Under the pieces are notes generated by a model. That model had not been told where the DNA came from, did no database searches, and saw only the letters and a program-made list of their open reading frames with translations. DNA of 64,000 bases from Sphingopyxis sp. BE259 (GTDB taxonomy: Bacteria > Pseudomonadota > Alphaproteobacteria > Sphingomonadales > Sphingomonadaceae). Shown here in pieces: positions 5,882 through 30,375 of this stretch (position 1 is its first letter; each line of letters begins with the position of its first letter). The stretch covers positions 3,150,001 through 3,214,000 of the forward strand of contig NZ_JAVDWM010000001.1 of the NCBI RefSeq assembly GCF_031457495.1, written 5' to 3'. The position numbers and the translations under genes are program-made.

Positions 5882-6274
5882 ATGAACAAGAACGCCGGCT
5901 GCACGCTCGCCGCCATTGGGGCCACAGTCGTTTTTCTGCTGGTCGTGCTGATCGGATACCCGCAGTACCGCGTCTATTCGCAGCGCCTGTCGGGCGAAGC
6001 CGCGCTGGCCGAGGCGCAATCGTCGCGGCAGGTCGCAATCCTTGAGGCGCGCGCCAAAAAGGAAAGCGCCATCTCGCTGGCCGAGGCCGAGGTCATCCGC
6101 GCCAAGGGAGCGGCCGAAGCCAATCAGATTTTGCAGAACAGCCTCGGCGGCCCCGAAGGCTATCTGCGCTACCTGCAAATTCAGGCGCTCGAATCGTCGC
6201 GCGCCTCGCTGATCTATGTTCCGACCGAGGGCGGCCTTCCCGTTACCGAAGCCCGCCGCCTCGCACCGCAATAA
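5882..6274 (+). CDS. small membrane-anchored, SPFH-tail-like coiled-coil protein between nrdA and nrdB
   Basis: A 130-residue protein with one N-terminal membrane segment (about residues 8-26). An Ala/Glu-rich helical region follows, containing AEAEVIRAKGAAEANQI and then GGPEGYLRYLQIQALES. This resembles the C-terminal part of prohibitin/HflK-type SPFH proteins without the globular SPFH domain, a comparison made from pattern only. It starts 10 nt after nrdA and ends 24 nt before nrdB, so it is almost surely co-transcribed with them. A role in oligomeric membrane assembly is possible. No link to nucleotide reduction can be shown from sequence. Confidence 0.7.
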   Translation: MNKNAGCTLAAIGATVVFLLVVLIGYPQYRVYSQRLSGEAALAEAQSSRQVAILEARAKKESAISLAEAEVIRAKGAAEANQILQNSLGGPEGYLRYLQIQALESSRASLIYVPTEGGLPVTEARRLAPQ

Positions 6275-6298
6275 CCGCTACACCCAAGGAAGCCCGCC

Positions 6299-7363
6299 AT
6301 GCCGTTGTTAGAAGCCCGCAACACCTACAAGCCCTTCGAATACCCCTGGGCGTTCGATTTCTGGAAGCGCCAGCAGCAGATCCACTGGGTTCCCGAGGAA
6401 GTGCCGCTGGGCGAGGATTGCCGCGACTGGGCGCAAAAGATCAGCGACCATGAACGCAATCTGCTCACCCAGATTTTCCGCTTCTTCACCCAGGCCGATA
6501 TCGAGGTGCAGGATTGCTACCACGACAAATATGGCCGCGTGTTCAAGCCGACCGAAATCAAGATGATGCTGACCGCGTTCAGCAACATGGAAACCGTGCA
6601 CATCGCGGCGTACAGCCACCTGCTCGACACCATCGGCATGCCCGAAAGCGAATATGGCATGTTCCTCGAATATGACGAGATGCGCGCCAAGCATGATTAT
6701 ATGCAGCAGTTCGGCGTCGACAATGACGAGGATATCGCGCGCACCCTCGCGATGTTCGGCGGCTTTACCGAGGGGCTCCAGCTCTTCGCCAGCTTCGCGA
6801 TGCTGATGAACTTCCCGCGCTTCAACAAGATGAAGGGCATGGGCCAGATCGTCAGCTGGTCGATCCGCGACGAAAGCCTGCATTGCGAAGGCATCATCAA
6901 GCTGTTCCACACCTTCACCAAGGAACGCGACTGCCTGACCAAGGCGGTGAAGGAAGACATCATCGACACCTGCCAGAAAACGGTGCGGCTCGAGGATGCG
7001 TTCATCGACCTGGCGTTCGAACAGGGGCCAGTCCCCGGCATGACGCCCAAGGAAATCAAGCGCTACATCCGCTACATCGCCGACTGGCGCCTCGGCCAGC
7101 TGGGGTTCCAGCCGATCTACATGATCGACGAACACCCCCTCCCCTGGCTCGCCCCGCTGCTCAACGGCGTCGAGCACGCCAACTTCTTCGAAACGCGCGC
7201 CACCGAATACAGCAAGGGCGCGACCCGCGGCGAGTGGAACAATGTCTGGTCCAGCTTCGACAACCGCAAGAAGGCCAAGGCGAATGACGACACCGCCCCG
7301 GTGATCACCGCCGAAACCGACGGCGAAGACATGTTCGCCAAGGCGGGGATCGCCGCCGAGTAA
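6299..7363 (+). CDS. nrdB: ribonucleoside-diphosphate reductase beta subunit
   Basis: A 354-residue radical-generating subunit. The diiron ligands appear as Asp67, Glu98, His101 (METVHIAAY), Glu158, Glu192 and His195 (RDESLHCEG). Tyr105, four residues after the histidine, sits at the position of E. coli Tyr122, the tyrosyl radical, so the protein should be a normal class Ia type. No ATP-cone is fused at its N-terminus, so neither subunit carries the dATP-sensing domain. The ribosome-binding site is AAGGAAG upstream of ATG 6299. A repeat element follows the stop. Confidence 0.96.
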   Translation: MPLLEARNTYKPFEYPWAFDFWKRQQQIHWVPEEVPLGEDCRDWAQKISDHERNLLTQIFRFFTQADIEVQDCYHDKYGRVFKPTEIKMMLTAFSNMETVHIAAYSHLLDTIGMPESEYGMFLEYDEMRAKHDYMQQFGVDNDEDIARTLAMFGGFTEGLQLFASFAMLMNFPRFNKMKGMGQIVSWSIRDESLHCEGIIKLFHTFTKERDCLTKAVKEDIIDTCQKTVRLEDAFIDLAFEQGPVPGMTPKEIKRYIRYIADWRLGQLGFQPIYMIDEHPLPWLAPLLNGVEHANFFETRATEYSKGATRGEWNNVWSSFDNRKKAKANDDTAPVITAETDGEDMFAKAGIAAE

Positions 7364-22773: not shown

Positions 22774-25359
22774 CTATGGGGCGTGCCGGAATGGCCGGAC
22801 GACGTCGCTAAATGCCGCCTGACTTTTCCAGTCGGTGGGGTCGAAGAAGGGCGCGCCCTCCACGCGGTGGGTTGAAACATAGAAATCGGGCAGCTTCGCC
22901 TGCTTGCCGATCGCATCCAGAAACACCTGCTTCCATGCGTCGCCTGCGGCCAGATGGGTGCCCTTGGGTTCGACAAAAATCTGCACCATCTTGGCAGACC
23001 CATCGCGGTCGCGTTCGAGGAACAGCAGGAAGTCGGGTTCGAACCCCGCGCCGTCGTCAAAGGCGTAAAGCTTGACCGCCTTTTCATTGCGGATGAGGCG
23101 GATTTCGCCAAAGTCGGCGCGCAAACGGTCGATCTGTTTGGCGATCGAAAGGATCAGTTCCATCTCGGCCGAGGTGCCGAAAAAATCATCGTGCGCGAAC
23201 CAGTCGAGGGTCGCTAGGTCGATGCCCTCGTTGCGCGTCCAATCTTTCCATTGCGTGCGGTAGGTGCCGCCGACGGTCAGCGTCACGTCCGCGATGCTTT
23301 TGTTCACCCGATGCGGGGTGAAATCGCGCGTTCCGATGTGATCAAAACTGCTGACCGCAATCTGGCTGGCAATCGCGTCGAGCGCGCCGCGTGCCAGAGT
23401 TAGTCGCGCGGTGACGTCGAGCGAAGCCAGCGCGGCCTTCGGCCCTGAAACTTCAAGCCGCACGCCGCCCAGAAAATCGACGCCCGAAACAAATGCGGCG
23501 CGGCTCGCCAGTTTGGGGAAATGGCGCCGCAGGTTGGCGAAGTGGAAAAAGGGATCGGCGTCGAGCGCATGGCGGATCACGCCGGGTCCAAGATCGGCGA
23601 ACGCAAGCGTCCGCTGCGCGATGCGGTCACCGGCGCGGCTGCTGTCATCGCCGTCAAAGGCGCTGCCCTCGCTGGTCCGCCCGCTATGGCCGAGCGAGAG
23701 CTGGATCAGCCGGGGAACCTGATAATCGTCGAGTTTGAAAATCGTCTTGCGGTCATTTTTCTGGCGGCTGTTGGCGAACAGCAGCCCGGATTTGAAGAAG
23801 TCGGTCTGGCGAAAGCTGTCCTTTACCTTCACCGTCGCTTTGCGCGTGTCGGCGTCGATCAGCCCCGATTCGACCAGCGCCTTCTTAATGTCGCCGACAT
23901 AGGCGGGGTCGTGGGTGCAATGATAATGGAGCTGTTCGATCGCGCGCAGCGGATGATCCTCGTCGGCGTCATATTTGCGCTGCTCACGGGGTTCTTCGGG
24001 CAGATCGGACGCCACGAACGGCCAGTAGCGGGCGCCGCGCCCGATCAACTGCGCTTCCTGATTGGTCGTGCTGTTCGTCCCCTGATCGTACAGGCGGACG
24101 ATGTCGAAGAGGTTCAGGACGTCCCAGCCCTCGTTGAGTTTATCGACGGCGAAGATACAGCGTACCTCGTTGTCATGATCCTCCAGACTGTTGAGTTCGA
24201 TCTGCTGACGCGCGAGGTCTTCGGGCTTGTTGACGTTGCGGACTTTTGTCGGGGCAAAGTCGAGGCGGATTTCGCGCGCGAAGTCGTCGACCGAAATCCC
24301 GCCGCCCGCGCGGGTCACGTGGCGCAGCGCATCGCCAACGGTGTCACCAGCGGGAAGCGCCGACATCATCGCGGTCAGCCGGTCGCCATCGAGCGTTTCG
24401 ATCAGCGCATGAAACGCCGCCTCATTGTCGGCGGAATCGGCCACCCGCCGCGATTTCATCATCACCACGGGTTTCAGCGACAGGCCATATTCGCCCGCCA
24501 GCTTACGGCGATACTGGCTGAGCACTACCGCCTGCAACATGCGTTGATCCAGCGAAATATCGGCGCGGCGCAGTTCGATTTCTTTCGAATAGCGATCGGC
24601 ACGAAACTGGCGCAGCGAATAGTCGTAGAGAATCTTGTCGTGATATTTGGCGGCGATTGCGGCGTGGCCCAGGTTGGCGGTGGCGGTAAATTCCAGCAGC
24701 AGATTGTCCGGACTGGCGCGAAAGACGGCATCGACCGTGCTTTCCCAGCTCGCCTCCAGCTTCAACTCCTCGCCCTTTTTGGTATCGGCATTCAGGTGGT
24801 GCGCCTCGTCCGAGATCAGCACGACCTTTCGTCCGGCGAAGTCCTCGACCGAAACGCCGTTTTCGCGCGGATTGACCATCCGGCTGTGTAGCCCCTGAAT
24901 GGTGGTGAAGTGGATGTTGATGCTGTCGGCGTCGGCTTCGTCGAAATTGCTGACCTCGCGGACCGTGACCGGCCTGCCGTCGAACCGCAGCGGATCGGCG
25001 AACAGATATTTGGACGACGTTGCGGCGAGGAAATTGGCCTTTGTCTTTTCGATAATCTGGGTCGAATTGACGAAGAACAGGAAGTTGCGATGACCGCGGG
25101 TGTACAGATCGAGGATCAGCGCCGCCATGATCACCGTCTTGCCGCTGCCGGTCGCCATATGAAACAGCAGGTGGGCGGGTTTCGGCCGTTGAGGATATTT
25201 GTCCATGTAGAACGCGAAGCGTTCCAGCGCTGTTGTCTGGTAGGGACGCAGTGTGATCGTCGGCGCAATGTTGGCCGCTACATGATCGGGAAGATCGGCA
25301 TTCAGCGCACCATATTTGGCGAGCGCATCGAATTCCTGGGCAAGCGATTGGCCATTCAC
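22774..25359 (-). CDS. type III restriction enzyme, Res subunit
   Basis: An 861-residue SF2 helicase-nuclease. Walker A ATGSGKT (residues 69-75), SDEAHH (183-188), a motif III-like TATAN, and QLIGRGARYWPF as motif VI are visible. The C-terminal nuclease reads FEPDF (Asp776), with VEPKG (Glu797, Lys799), a PD-(D/E)XK-type site. In type III systems Res cleaves DNA only in complex with Mod, after translocation or sliding between inversely oriented sites. The locus order is mod, two small genes, res. Mod is interrupted here, so the enzyme is probably idle. Confidence 0.9.
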   Translation of the reverse strand: MNGQSLAQEFDALAKYGALNADLPDHVAANIAPTITLRPYQTTALERFAFYMDKYPQRPKPAHLLFHMATGSGKTVIMAALILDLYTRGHRNFLFFVNSTQIIEKTKANFLAATSSKYLFADPLRFDGRPVTVREVSNFDEADADSINIHFTTIQGLHSRMVNPRENGVSVEDFAGRKVVLISDEAHHLNADTKKGEELKLEASWESTVDAVFRASPDNLLLEFTATANLGHAAIAAKYHDKILYDYSLRQFRADRYSKEIELRRADISLDQRMLQAVVLSQYRRKLAGEYGLSLKPVVMMKSRRVADSADNEAAFHALIETLDGDRLTAMMSALPAGDTVGDALRHVTRAGGGISVDDFAREIRLDFAPTKVRNVNKPEDLARQQIELNSLEDHDNEVRCIFAVDKLNEGWDVLNLFDIVRLYDQGTNSTTNQEAQLIGRGARYWPFVASDLPEEPREQRKYDADEDHPLRAIEQLHYHCTHDPAYVGDIKKALVESGLIDADTRKATVKVKDSFRQTDFFKSGLLFANSRQKNDRKTIFKLDDYQVPRLIQLSLGHSGRTSEGSAFDGDDSSRAGDRIAQRTLAFADLGPGVIRHALDADPFFHFANLRRHFPKLASRAAFVSGVDFLGGVRLEVSGPKAALASLDVTARLTLARGALDAIASQIAVSSFDHIGTRDFTPHRVNKSIADVTLTVGGTYRTQWKDWTRNEGIDLATLDWFAHDDFFGTSAEMELILSIAKQIDRLRADFGEIRLIRNEKAVKLYAFDDGAGFEPDFLLFLERDRDGSAKMVQIFVEPKGTHLAAGDAWKQVFLDAIGKQAKLPDFYVSTHRVEGAPFFDPTDWKSQAAFSDVVRPFRHAP

Positions 25360-25583: not shown

Positions 25584-25831
25584 GCCTGATCCTCGGTAAA
25601 GTCGCGGTCGATAAACGCATTGTGCAGCGTTTCGCCGTCCGCCAGCGTGACGACGCGCAAGATGCGCTCTTTTGCTTCATTTGCCAAGCGCACCGGCCCC
25701 CAATGGCGAATGCGCCCGTCGGGCTGGACGGTGCGCCGCACCGGCGATGCCACCACGTCCTGGCACATTTCGACCGTCAGATAAGGGCGCTTGCGCAGCA
25801 CCTGTTCGGTGAAATAGCGCGTGGTTTTCAA
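25580..25831 (-). CDS. small protein paired with DUF2283 (DUF4258/RelE-like?)
   Basis: An 83-residue basic protein: YFTEQVLRKRPYLTVEMCQ, RRTVQPDGRIRHWGPVRL and LRVVTLADGETLHNAFIDR. The order of a helix, a basic strand segment and a final strand-rich region recalls small RelE-like/DUF4258 toxins. This is a judgement by pattern. Its start overlaps the mod stop and its stop overlaps the DUF2283 start, so the four genes form one transcript. Confidence 0.6.
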   Translation of the reverse strand: MKTTRYFTEQVLRKRPYLTVEMCQDVVASPVRRTVQPDGRIRHWGPVRLANEAKERILRVVTLADGETLHNAFIDRDFTEDQA

Positions 25832-27759
25832 CGATCGCCCTCATAAAAAGCCTTGTTCACCGCAATGTCGGCGGCGGACAGGCCATAGGCGGCGTCGGCG
25901 ATGTCACCATGATTGACGTAAAGATGATTGGCGTCGAGCGCCTCCAGCAGCGTCGCCTTACGCTGGTCGAATTCCAGCGTGGCAAAGGCGTCCCAATCCC
26001 ATAGCGCCTGATCGACCGTGTAACGCCAATAGCCGTTAGCGCGCATGTCCGCGGTCACTTGCCCCAGCGCCTGTTCGTCGTCCGCTTCGCGGATCCGGCT
26101 CCCGAGGGCTTCGTTCCATTCGGCGAGTTCCAGATAGACGAACGAACCGCCGCCCTGCCAGTTCTGCGCCTTTGAAACGCCGCCCTGTTCGCCTTCGATG
26201 ACTTTTTTCAGGCGCGTCATCGTGACGTCGCCGACATAGTCCATCTGATCGACGCCGATCCAGCGGCGACCCATTTTGTGCGCAACGGCGCAGGTCGTGC
26301 CGGAGCCGAGGAAGAAGTCGAGAATGAGGTCCTTGGGTTGGGTTGAAATTTCAATGATCCGCTCGATCAACCCTTCCGGCTTCGGCGTATCGAATGCTGC
26401 CTTCTCACCAAAAATGAGTTCCAGTTCCCGAGCGGCGTGTTGGTTAAAACCAACATTGTCCCAAATAGAAGGTGTCGTCATTCCCCGGGTTGCTTCAGAC
26501 TTGAACAGCTTTCGCATCGGGGTGCCGGCACGTCCATCTTTTCCCCAAAAATATCGGCGGTCGGCGATAAGTCGCTTCATTTCAGTTTCGTCGTAAACCC
26601 AGCAACGCCCCTTTCGCGGGTAAACGATTTCGCCTGTGAAGGGATTTTGGACGCCATAGGTTAGGCTCTCAACATAGCGACCGCCCTTCGCGTTGCCTGT
26701 CGAATCTACTTTGCGGAATGGCCCACGGTCATCAATACCAAACGGCTCTTCATATTCGCGATACTCAGCGTCGGCCTTCTCTGTCCGCCCCATAGGATAT
26801 AGAGATGCCGACGCCTCGCTATTCTCTTTCTTCGCAACGCCCTTTGAGTAGATCAAGGTGTGGTCATGGATCGATCCAATTCGCTTATCGTTCGGCGGAC
26901 CGTCACGGCGTTGCCATGCGACGTCGACGATAAAACGATCTCGTCCGAAAATTTCGTCCATCAAAACCTTGCAGTAGTGAGCTTCTCTACTGTCTAGATT
27001 AACGAATATGACACCCGAAGACGAAAGCAAATCTTTGGCGATTTCAAGTCGGCTTTTCATAAAAGTTAGCCACGCGGAATGTTCAAACCGGTCGTTATAG
27101 CCGAACCCCTCGTTTTCTGTATTATAGGGCGGATCAATATAGACTAGCTTCACCTGCCCGGCATAACGCGCCTTCAGACTGTGAAGCGCGAGCAGATTAT
27201 TGCCCTTGATCAGCAGATTGTCGTCGGCGCCGATGGTGCCGACCGGCTTCGGCTTGCCCGCCGCGACGGCTTCGGCATCCCAGCGTTCAAAGCCGGTCAG
27301 CGCCTTGGGTTCGAACAGCCGGGTGATGTCGTCGGGCGCAAGCGTGGTATTCTAGAACAGCTCGTCGCGTTTGGCATCTTCCTTCGTCATCCCGCCTTCG
27401 AGCACGCAATCCTTGTACGGCCACGCCAGCACGACGTCGCGGCTGTCCTTCAGATAGCGGCCCTGCCCATCAGTCAGGCCGATGCGATTGCGAAAGGCGG
27501 TGTAGCTGTCGGGCAGGAATGCCTTGTTCGACACAAATTCGGCAAATTTCACCTTGTCGAACACCAGCGTACCGCCGACGTCGGCAAAGAAATGCGCCCG
27601 GATCGGGTCCGACGACAGCAGGGTTTGCAGGAAATCGGCATCAAGCCGTGTCGCCCGGTCGATGACCGCATTTTTGATGAGATGGCCGCTCCCGTCGATC
27701 AGCGCCTCGTTCGTCGCCAGCAGTTGTTCAAGATCGTGGAACAGGTTTTGCATCATCAT
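25828..27759 (-). pseudogene. type III DNA methyltransferase (Mod), interrupted by an in-frame TAG
   Basis: One reading frame of 643 codons is broken by a single TAG at 27352-27354, about codon 136 counted from ATG 27759. The 135-residue N-terminal part ends DAKRDELF. After the stop the frame continues NTTLAPDDITRLFEPK, then IKGNNLLALHSL, DPPYNT (motif IV) and DFFLGSGTT (motif I), the beta-class order of type III N6-adenine methyltransferases. TAC or TAT to TAG would be a one-base change. Reinitiation downstream would have to use a start near 27153, inside the catalytic domain. It could be a true nonsense mutation, suppression or a sequencing error. Confidence 0.85.
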
Positions 27760-27849
27760 CCCTTCGTCGCGCCTCCTTGCATCAAGTCGGCGTCGATTGG
27801 CAACCGGGATGGGCCGGGCCAACACGGGAATGGCGCGGGCGGGTTTGGG

Positions 27850-27983
27850 AATCCTCCCTGTGCCTCAGGCATGGGGAGGGGGACCGTCCGAAGAGTGGTG
27901 GTGGGGCTGCGACGGTAGCGCCAAAGCCCCTCCGTCAGCGCTTCGCGCTGCCACCTCCCCATGGCTTCGCCACAGGGAGGATT
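27850..27983. repeat. long imperfect palindromic repeat (CCTCCCTGTG ends)
   Basis: The ends AATCCTCCCTGTG and CACAGGGAGGATT are perfect inverted arms. Inside, ATGGGGAGG and CCTCCCCAT form a second pair. The total length is about 134 bp. The right end reaches into the stop codon of the next gene. Confidence 0.7.
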
Positions 27984-28893
27984 ATTGCGTTAGCCACCGC
28001 CTGCAATCATCCCGGACCCGCGCATCGCTGTCCCGCATCCCCCGCTCCAGCACCGCCGCCCTGCCCTCGCCCTCCGCCACCGCCGCCAGCGCGGCGATGG
28101 CGCCCGCGCGGACTCTCGGGACGGGGTGCGTCTGCGCGATGTGGTCGGCGATGCCCTGCGCCTCTTCGCTCAGGTGGACGGCGCAGCGGAGGAGGAGTTC
28201 GCCGCTGGTCAGGGTGGGGCGGCGGGCGATGGTGGGGGGCTGGCCCGCGCGCGCGCGCGCTTCGCTGCCCAGATCGACGATATATTGGTCGCGCCAAGGG
28301 ACATGCTCGCCCTCGTCCATGATGTTCAAGCTGACCGACAGGCTGGCGGGGGGCTGCTGGCAGTGGAGGTCGCGGTGGGCGCGATAGAGGAGCATCTGGC
28401 CTTCGCCAAGCTGGCTGCGCCCGGTGAAGGTCGGGGTCAGCGGCTCGCCGTGGCGGCCGTCGATCGCCTCTGGATCGACCTCATAATCGTCGCTGAGATA
28501 GCCGGGGCCGAAATAGCCGATGGTGAGGAAGTTGAAATTATGGTCGTGCGCGACGCCGTAGGAGAAGGCCGCGGCGCCGCTGGTCCGATAGGCGGCGTCG
28601 GGCGCGGCGGGCCAGATGTTGGCGCGCAGGTACCAGCCGCGCGGGCTGCGGTGGAGGAGGATGACCTGCGCCGAATAGCGGTTGGCGGGCTGTGGTTCGG
28701 CGGCGTCGGATACGAGCGCGGCGATGAGGTGGTCGGCGAGAAAGTCGCGGTTGCGCTGGAGGCCGGCGAGGAGGGTGGCGCAGCGGTGGATACTGGCCTC
28801 GTCGGTGAGGTCGACACCGTGCTGGTCGAGGGTGCCGGTGACTTCGGCGAGGGTGAGCGGGGGTCCGGGGGGTGGAGTTACTGGGCGGGGCAT
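27982..28893 (-). CDS. cupin-like/HEAT-repeat protein in a small-peptide operon
   Basis: A 303-residue protein, not assigned to a named family. The central part has AFSYGVAHDHNFNFLTIGYF (His116 and His118) and LLYRAHRDLHCQ (His173, His177). This is the spacing of metal-binding histidines in cupin-type oxygenases. Residues about 240-303 form HEAT-like helices (HPVPRVRAGAIAALAAVA, DSDARVRDDCRRWL). The gene is third in an operon behind a 48-residue peptide gene and another HEAT protein. A role as an iron-dependent peptide-modifying enzyme is an inference from context. Its stop codon lies at the edge of a palindromic repeat. Confidence 0.65.
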   Translation of the reverse strand: MPRPVTPPPGPPLTLAEVTGTLDQHGVDLTDEASIHRCATLLAGLQRNRDFLADHLIAALVSDAAEPQPANRYSAQVILLHRSPRGWYLRANIWPAAPDAAYRTSGAAAFSYGVAHDHNFNFLTIGYFGPGYLSDDYEVDPEAIDGRHGEPLTPTFTGRSQLGEGQMLLYRAHRDLHCQQPPASLSVSLNIMDEGEHVPWRDQYIVDLGSEARARAGQPPTIARRPTLTSGELLLRCAVHLSEEAQGIADHIAQTHPVPRVRAGAIAALAAVAEGEGRAAVLERGMRDSDARVRDDCRRWLTQ

Positions 28894-28907
28894 GGAGTTT
28901 CCTCTGC

Positions 28908-29033
28908 TCCCCTCCCGCAGGCGGGAGGGGTTGGGGGTGGGGTTGGCGGTTTGGCGCTGTGCTTGATGCCCACCCCGCTGCGACTAGCCAGCAAGCTGGC
29001 AAGTCTCGCTGCCCCTCCCCTGAAGGGGAGGGG
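28908..29033. repeat. family A palindromic repeat, full element
   Basis: The left palindrome (28908-28930) is CCCCTCCCGC/GCGGGAGGGG. A spacer follows, then CCCCGCTGCGACT-AG-CCAGC-AA-GCTGG-C-AAGTCTCGCTG and a right palindrome CCCCTCCCC/GGGGAGGGG. It lies between the two HEAT genes and supplies the last codons and stop of the upstream one. Confidence 0.8.
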
Positions 29034-30039
29034 ATTGGAGGAGTGCGAGCGTGGCTTGGGCTGCGGCGCGCACTTCGGGGTGCGGATCGTCCGCTGCCAT
29101 CGCGGCGAGCGGGGCGTGGGCGGCGGTGGGGTTGAGCGCGATCAACTCGCGCATTGCGTGCCAGCGGGCGGCGAAATCCTGGCTGTGCGTCTCGACCTCG
29201 AACAACGCCACAGCGTCGGGGCGACCGAGGTGGCGGAGCAGGGTCAGCGCCATGGCGCGGAAGCTGCTGTCGCGGCGCGAGGCGCTGATGTGGAGGAGGT
29301 GGCCGGTGGCAGGGTCGTAGCTGCGGATCGGGAGCGGCGACGGCGGCTGGACGGTGAGTTCGAGGAGGAGCGTGTCGTGCGCACCGGGGACGAGAGTGAA
29401 GCCTTCGCGCGCGGTGTCAAGGTCGAGCGTCTCGCCGGTCCTGAGCGGGCGCGGCGGATCGCTTTGGCAGGGCGCGGCAGCGCTGGCGGTGAACGCGCCC
29501 GCTTCCTCGGCCGGGGTGAGCGCGACATGGTGTTGGCAAAGCTGCGCCCCGCCGCTGGCAAGGACATGGATCGCGGTGCGTCCGGGGACGAAAATGGCGG
29601 GCGTTTCGGGCGGTGCGGAGGAGGCGAAGGGCCAGACGCGCAAGGTCAGGCGGACGTGGCCGCGTTCGGCAAGCACGAGTCCGCCCGGCGCCGGGTCGCC
29701 GCCGGCGCCCTCCCCGCCACCGAAGGCGCGCAGCGGTGGGCGCGCGAAGGGGTCGGCGCGGAGGAGCGCGAGCGCGCTGTCCAGTCGGCGTTCCAGCCAG
29801 CGCCTATCGGTGAGCCATGGGCGCAGCGCCGCCATGGCATCAGCGGGGGCGGCGTCCGCCTGCGCCGCGATCGCAGTGAGCAGCCCGTCGGGCGCGGTGT
29901 CGGCGGCGGTCCACGCGGCGTCGACCCTGGCCACGGCGGTGCGGATCGTATCACGGCGCGCGCCGTCGTGGCGCGGGAAATGATCGTGGCGGGAGGCGCT
30001 GACGGGCATCGCGGTGGGGCGGGAAAGCCGGGGCGCCAT
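28984..30039 (-). CDS. HEAT-repeat protein, second gene of the small-peptide operon
   Basis: A 351-residue protein. The N-terminal 100 residues are helical with WLTDRRWLERRLDSALALL. The middle (about 125-250) is strand-rich (VRLTLRVWPFAS, AIFVPGRTAIHVLA, TLLLELTV) and could be a degenerate cupin-like barrel. The C-terminal part (about 260-340) has HEAT-like helices (SSFRAMALTLLRHLGRPDAV, DPHPEVRAAAQATLALL). The final residues PPLQGRGSETCQLAG are encoded by the family A repeat, so the original 3' end was probably replaced. ATG 30039 has AAGGGACGG upstream; ATG 30009 is an alternative. The function is unknown. Confidence 0.6.
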   Translation of the reverse strand: MAPRLSRPTAMPVSASRHDHFPRHDGARRDTIRTAVARVDAAWTAADTAPDGLLTAIAAQADAAPADAMAALRPWLTDRRWLERRLDSALALLRADPFARPPLRAFGGGEGAGGDPAPGGLVLAERGHVRLTLRVWPFASSAPPETPAIFVPGRTAIHVLASGGAQLCQHHVALTPAEEAGAFTASAAAPCQSDPPRPLRTGETLDLDTAREGFTLVPGAHDTLLLELTVQPPSPLPIRSYDPATGHLLHISASRRDSSFRAMALTLLRHLGRPDAVALFEVETHSQDFAARWHAMRELIALNPTAAHAPLAAMAADDPHPEVRAAAQATLALLQSPPLQGRGSETCQLAG

Positions 30040-30063
30040 GCCCCGTCCCTTCCCGCCGCCCTG

Positions 30064-30210
30064 TCAGTCGTACACGATAAGCGCGATGGTGACCGCGATT
30101 TCGAACACCGACGGCCCCGACGATGCGCTGTCACCGACGAACGAGCCGAAAAGCCCGACCGCGGTGTCCAGCAACGGCAGCGCGTCTATATCGATAGGTG
30201 GCAGATCCAT
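30064..30210 (-). CDS. 48-residue peptide, candidate precursor peptide
   Basis: The frame starts MDLPPIDIDALPLLDTAVGL, continues with GSFVGDSASSG, and ends in a hydrophobic FEIAVTIALIVYD. AGGGGAA lies 6-12 nt before the ATG, a plausible ribosome-binding site. The acidic, leader-like first half and hydrophobic tail, directly upstream of two HEAT proteins (one with cupin-like histidines), resemble the layout of a ribosomally made and modified peptide system. No known RiPP class is matched. It could instead be a membrane-inserted small protein. Confidence 0.5.
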   Translation of the reverse strand: MDLPPIDIDALPLLDTAVGLFGSFVGDSASSGPSVFEIAVTIALIVYD

Positions 30211-30375
30211 GTGGCATTCCCCTGGCAAACGGCGGCGCGACCCGCCGCCAGGGGTGAGGCTAGGTGGCGCTGCACGGGGTGCCAGTTAACTTACCGTAAT
30301 GTCGCTGGTCGAAGGTAGCTTGCTCCGGCGGCGGCGCGGCATAGGATGGTGTGGAAACGAACCGGGAGATTTGCC

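Follow-up and report, generated by a model that had tools for sequence, protein, structure and literature searches.

A conserved short peptide gene linked to a predicted three-histidine cupin–HEAT protein in Sphingomonadaceae: a candidate peptide-maturation operon

The DNA considered here (the window) is a stretch of 64,000 nucleotides from Sphingopyxis sp. BE259 (contig NZ_JAVDWM010000001.1, positions 3,150,001 to 3,214,000), and the subject is an operon of three genes within it, denoted A, B and C (Table 1). An initial annotation, made from the letters of the window, had proposed three same-strand genes with short gaps, and the open reading frames (ORFs) confirm this arrangement, with 24 nt between A and B and 90 nt between B and C. 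The host genome comprises 3.67 Mb on a single contig and carries C as one copy; among the relatives listed, the closest named ones of this C protein are from Sphingopyxis. Searches of NCBIfam, PHROGs and PADLOC gave no informative match for A, B or C, and in Pfam the HEAT profiles alone were informative. A phage protein and a defence system were discarded as identities, as PHROGs matched only at E 0.12 and 0.25 and PADLOC gave no match at E ≤ 1.

Table 1. Features of the A-B-C locus in the window.
Feature	Position	Strand	Description
Gene A	30064-30210	minus	48-aa peptide from ATG; alternative TTG start gives 54 aa
Gene B	28984-30039	minus	351 aa; homologue of C, predicted to be a degenerate cupin that ends in HEAT repeats
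Gene C	27982-28893	minus	303 aa; predicted 3-His cupin of thiol-dioxygenase type with C-terminal HEAT-like helices
Conserved upstream site	30282..30300	minus	ATTACGGTAAGTTAACTGG; 90 bp ahead of the A start codon

Peptide A has a conserved N-terminal half (LPxIDIxALPLLDTAVGLFGS), a variable linker around residues 25-30 and a conserved hydrophobic C-terminal tail (SGPSVFEIAVTIALIVYD). A database search with a peptide profile returned 220 relatives, and the 120 listed are hypothetical or unnamed. These 120 contain 97 distinct 48-mers, in which residues 12, 14, 16, 18-20, 22 and 45 never change, the stretch 25-30 is variable, and residues 31-48 (SGPSVFEIAVTIALIxxD) are again mostly conserved. Across genera the front (IDIxxLPxLDTxxGxFGS) stays constant and the tail is variable, with DDRIVIIMVYxYE types, GG-types such as QQEVGGPLCLGVVVAVLLAL, and others. 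Another set, of 110 A peptides, in which twelve, mostly spotted by eye, were added to or replaced profile matches, is net acidic in 103 cases; every member contains a 12-mer with a mean hydropathy of at least 1.2, which starts past 40% of the length in 108. The median pairwise dN/dS of 0.30 (21 Sphingopyxis-type loci, i.e. the window and 20 of the 23 A-bearing loci found by tblastn; 209 of 210 pairs usable) indicates purifying selection.

Homologues of the HEAT proteins with no conserved short gene nearby had been named beforehand as evidence against the initial annotation; the short gene turned out to be conserved. In a first set of 33 loci, tblastn located A in 23. Among the other ten, L001, L003 and L007 start at C, L021 starts inside B, L032 is a C remnant alone, and five are distant (L027, L029, L030, L031 and L033). 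A clear relative of A is present in L031 (profile E 1e-12; this locus was also a profile seed) and a doubtful one in L027 (E 0.34). Of 40 further Sphingomonadaceae loci (L064-L103), the source of most profile seeds, 36 match the A profile at E < 0.05. Candidates were found by eye in L085, L086 and L087, and L066 keeps C but has lost the start of B, with no peptide found. As the profile had been trained on part of these loci, the single test on unseen loci is a scan of 40 fresh ones with the profile frozen. Here 39 of 40 match, and each match is same-strand and terminates no more than ~120 nt from where B is estimated to start; the worst E-value is 0.0034, and the sole match located elsewhere has E 0.22. 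The fortieth locus, L138, encodes a 45-aa peptide of like build, identified by eye. In 60 of 67 pairs, counted where B was present and longer than 150 aa, the B and C genes either overlap or are separated by at most 20 nt. The A-B-C arrangement thus exceeds chance: A is under purifying selection and kept upstream of B across genera, and B and C are tightly coupled. One locus, L084 (3874-8597), contains two successive B-C pairs and three candidate peptides, of which two stand in tandem ahead of the second pair.

Within the genus, A was found in 24 of 36 genomes and C in all 24, full-length in 22 and as remnants in G313 and G293; in the latter A is partial and forms part of a longer reading frame. 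A and C are on separate contigs in four of the 22 (G302, G307, G338 and G224), so that adjacency is not visible there. Three same-genus genomes have a full-length C with no match to A: in G316 and G337 C or B stands at a contig start, and G311 has a divergent B. Outside the family, 24 genomes of the same order gave no match to the A query. The short candidate precursor gene is, in sum, genetically linked to C, the candidate maturase. The remnants take several forms: L184 (G313) retains intact A and B but has lost an internal part of C, L185 and L186 are C fragments, and L187 is a C fragment with partial A. These forms bear on a toxin–antitoxin-like scheme in which A would be a small hydrophobic toxin neutralised by B-C. 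The shortness and hydrophobic tail of A fit that scheme, as does L066, where C persists and neither the start of B nor a peptide was found. However, G313, with A and B intact and C internally deleted, argues that cells tolerate A when C is lacking, a conserved three-histidine active site (see below) is unexpected in a simple antidote, and PADLOC found nothing; we consider the scheme very improbable.

Sphingomonadaceae are a family of water and soil bacteria, and the A-B-C order is kept in many of them. C matches occur in 105 of 298 genomes of the family (fragments counted), in 5 of 385 genomes of the class, four of which belong to the family, and in 16 of 398 genomes of the phylum. Of these 16, 13 are again in the family; G995 and G839 are clear matches outside it and G831 is a weak one. 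At L191 (G839) tblastn did not see B. Sporadic C proteins outside the family come from Lysobacter, Nevskiaceae, Stagnimonas and a metagenome-assembled genome (MAG) labelled Blastopirellula, and a search with the Lysobacter protein gave 12 relatives.

C itself was expected, from its sequence, to carry H116-D-H118 and H173/H177 in a strand-rich region followed by helices. The residues are as described, and the predicted model shows five C-terminal helices. A cupin fold in the middle of the protein had likewise been anticipated; the predicted structure has one, most like the 3-His thiol dioxygenases. Ligand-type histidines are conserved, again as proposed: among 120 C relatives (C proteins of ≤230 aa and identical proteins left out), H116 and H118 are present in 120/120 and H177 in 119/120. 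The HRDLH pair held only in part, since H177 is a likely ligand and position 173, with His in 101/120, is ruled out as a metal ligand by its conservation. We infer from the model and these residues that C probably binds one iron through H116, H118 and H177. The outer-sphere Ser-His-Tyr motif of the small-molecule thiol dioxygenases (cysteine dioxygenase, CDO, and MDO) was not found in C, the aligned residues being S188-N190-M192, with N190 in 119/120. In Pfam, CDO_I (PF05995) matched neither the window's C at E ≤ 1 nor any of 54 C members at E ≤ 0.01. HEAT_2 scores 16.6 bits against the window's C, below the Pfam cut-off of 27.7, and at E ≤ 0.01 HEAT_2 matches 7 and HEAT 3 of the 54 proteins. 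A phmmer search of the PDB with C gave nothing at E ≤ 1, and a C profile gave three weak matches to PDB sequences, all to a transcription factor IIF domain (E 0.04-0.08).

Scoring of 8000 candidates yielded 1912 C relatives, and those listed are named transposase, hypothetical or nothing at all. Taken at face value, the database names would make C a transposase: 16 of 120 listed relatives are so labelled, one as 'ISXo8 transposase'. The predicted thiol-dioxygenase-like cupin contradicts this, no transposase family appears in the Pfam matches of the 54 members, and the window's genome has a single C copy. These observations rule the identity out, its probability being practically nil, and the label is apparently a propagated misannotation.

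B is a homologue of C and is predicted to be a degenerate cupin-HEAT protein that lacks the conserved metal histidines, a relationship absent from the initial annotation. The HEAT-like helices which the latter placed at its end are supported by HEAT_2, at 33.2 bits against the same cut-off. The profile of ten CDO sequences introduced below aligned to B with an hhalign probability of 2%. An interspersed repeat lies at 28894-29040, between B and C, and encodes the final residues of the window's B; the 147-base query has 41 matches (self included) in the window's genome.

The site upstream of A follows the consensus ~ATTACrATnnkTTAAyT and is a probable operator or promoter element. It scores above 8 bits in 77 of 88 A-upstream regions, at -72 to -103 in 70 of the 77, and 11 of the 88 have no match. 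Regions were included when the profile match was below 1e-5, an ATG stood at a fitting distance and 200 bp were available ahead of it; L099 was dropped as a duplicate. Scoring used the sequences on which the matrix had been trained, and the control consisted solely of random 200-mers from the same loci, of which 3 of 833 exceed 8 bits. A CtrA site was rejected, because the spacing differs from TTAA-N7-TTAA, and the motif is left unnamed. In 17 of 121 locus rows, a set in which L138 and L196 represent one genome, C is succeeded on its own strand by a gene for an OmpR-type winged-helix protein, which lies 49 to 603 nt past the end of the C match. All five of these genes that were checked contain Trans_reg_C; a receiver domain was seen in one, below cut-off, and none was recognised in four. 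By eye, such regulators (L067, L073, L078, L082, L138 and others) accompany mainly peptides of non-DD type.

These elements raise the prospect of a sensor, in which A and B-C would detect oxygen, a metal or another cue and the OmpR-type regulator would read their state and act on the upstream site. The frequency of the site, the regulator genes with mostly no recognised receiver domain, and the description of the thiol dioxygenase ADO as an oxygen sensor in excerpts from PMC8503633 speak for it. Conversely, the OmpR-type gene was not found in 104 of the 121 rows (some with little downstream sequence), and the site occurs once in the window's genome at ≤2 mismatches, so that no wider regulon is visible. 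A sensor therefore appears quite improbable.

The most economical reading, and one that we regard as moderately probable, is that A-B-C is a peptide-maturation operon resembling those of ribosomally synthesized and post-translationally modified peptides (RiPPs). The RiPP-like or peptide-sensing system of the initial annotation is to this extent partly supported, by the conserved short gene, the predicted cupin and the ligand-type histidines, and peptide A may be chemically modified or sensed. In the proposed mechanism B, the HEAT-like helices of C, or both would bind the conserved front of A, which would serve as a leader; with one iron at H116/H118/H177, C would use O2 to oxidise the tail, or core, of A; and the modified peptide would then be cut and act outside the cell or at the membrane. 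Control might be exerted through the upstream site and the OmpR-type regulator found beside C in some genomes.

Several observations weigh against maturation of A. The main difficulty is chemical. Known thiol dioxygenases, the relatives of C's fold, oxidise thiols, and Cys is absent from 91 of the 110 A peptides; the reaction would thus not be ordinary thiol oxidation of A. Inside Sphingopyxis, where it is the linker that varies, the tail of A is as conserved as the front, something that a free-running core would not call for. No peptide was seen at four distant loci (L029, L030, L033 and L183), and four same-genus genomes carry broken copies, so that the operon is not essential there. The Foldseek comparison of the C model with 4tlf gives modest TM-scores, 0.38 by query and 0.55 by target. 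In hhalign, two single CDO-like proteins were uninformative (probability <1%), and a 10-sequence CDO profile was therefore built from 8 of 10 fetched regions and two loci from another search. Its match to C is a weak sequence link (probability 37%, E 3.5e-4), in an alignment that places H116, H118 and H177 on the CDO histidines. Finally, the ORFs flanking the operon, which were clustered and not systematically annotated, included no recognised transporter or protease gene, and the window's genome gave no match to a C39 peptidase; it has two TldD/PmbA-type genes elsewhere.

Some of the same features would suit A as a small structural partner and not a substrate, its front docking on B/C and its tail adding a strand or anchoring B-C to the membrane, with C acting on another, small-molecule substrate. 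Within Sphingopyxis A is conserved at both ends, as a subunit would be, the tail is hydrophobic throughout (no peptide of the 110 has a best 12-mer below 1.2), B and C are tightly coupled, and most A peptides lack the thiol that an enzyme of this type would act upon. Yet the tails diverge strongly between clades while the C active site is nearly invariant, L084 carries two candidate peptides in tandem, and C does not have the Ser-His-Tyr motif of the small-molecule enzymes. We thus consider a structural role of A unlikely.

Comparison with known systems further delimits the RiPP-like reading. From the small-molecule thiol dioxygenases (cysteine, 3-mercaptopropionate and mercaptosuccinate dioxygenase) C is distinguished by this missing motif, by its additional HEAT-like C-terminus and by its coupling to a peptide gene. 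CDO also has a substrate Arg, whereas C has none at the aligned place (position 75 is Pro or Ala in 104/120), in what is a weak alignment. ADO and the plant cysteine oxidases act on an N-terminal cysteine, which A does not possess; the window's peptide begins MDLPP, a difference that matters if A is the substrate. The MNIO fold differs from that of a cupin-type maturase candidate such as C. RiPP clusters with unusual iron maturases, such as the MNIO systems, resemble A-B-C in that the gene for a short precursor adjoins those for a partner protein and a predicted iron enzyme. In excerpts from PMC12257519, an MNIO is accompanied by a partner protein described as hypothetical and by a cupin-like hydroxylase related to JmjC (pbsQ). 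Against this JmjC-related pbs cupin, C is a predicted thiol-dioxygenase-type cupin with HEAT-like helices, and its partner B a degenerate paralogue. The only paper found on Sphingopyxis RiPPs, PMC11006600, concerns lasso peptides in the excerpts available. In the open-access literature searched, no description of the A-B-C operon was found; RiPP-like operons are already known, and a maturase candidate of C's type was not found in them. The almost constant pairing of the small A gene with a probable iron enzyme and its inactive-looking counterpart suggests that A-B-C is an undescribed way to make or use a modified peptide.

A narrower proposal strikes us as possible, if somewhat short of probable. 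A 3-His thiol-dioxygenase-type iron enzyme would have turned from thiols to a mostly cysteine-free ribosomal peptide, whose Ile/Val-rich tail it would oxidise at aliphatic or backbone positions, and the degenerate paralogue would be the subunit that recognises the peptide; this would amount to a new class of peptide maturation, and a common one in Sphingomonadaceae. If true, a new maturase fold would be added to RiPP chemistry, the question would arise of how a 3-His iron site activates O2 on a mostly thiol-free substrate, and the large C family as well as the A peptide would gain a function.

Other genes near these operons are recorded for completeness. In L027, the Blastopirellula-labelled MAG, a LytTR response regulator and a LuxR-type autoinducer-binding regulator flank the operon (2131-2868 and 5914-6717). 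In L068 and L078 a gene ~1.4 kb past the C start has a sequence reminiscent of a TIR-domain protein. Downstream of C in the window, on the minus strand, lie type III restriction-modification genes at 27352-27825, 25828-27153 and 22774-25359 (TypeIII_RM_meth, N6_N4_Mtase, ResIII); the methylase, whose parts are split over separate ORFs, may be broken or phase-variable.
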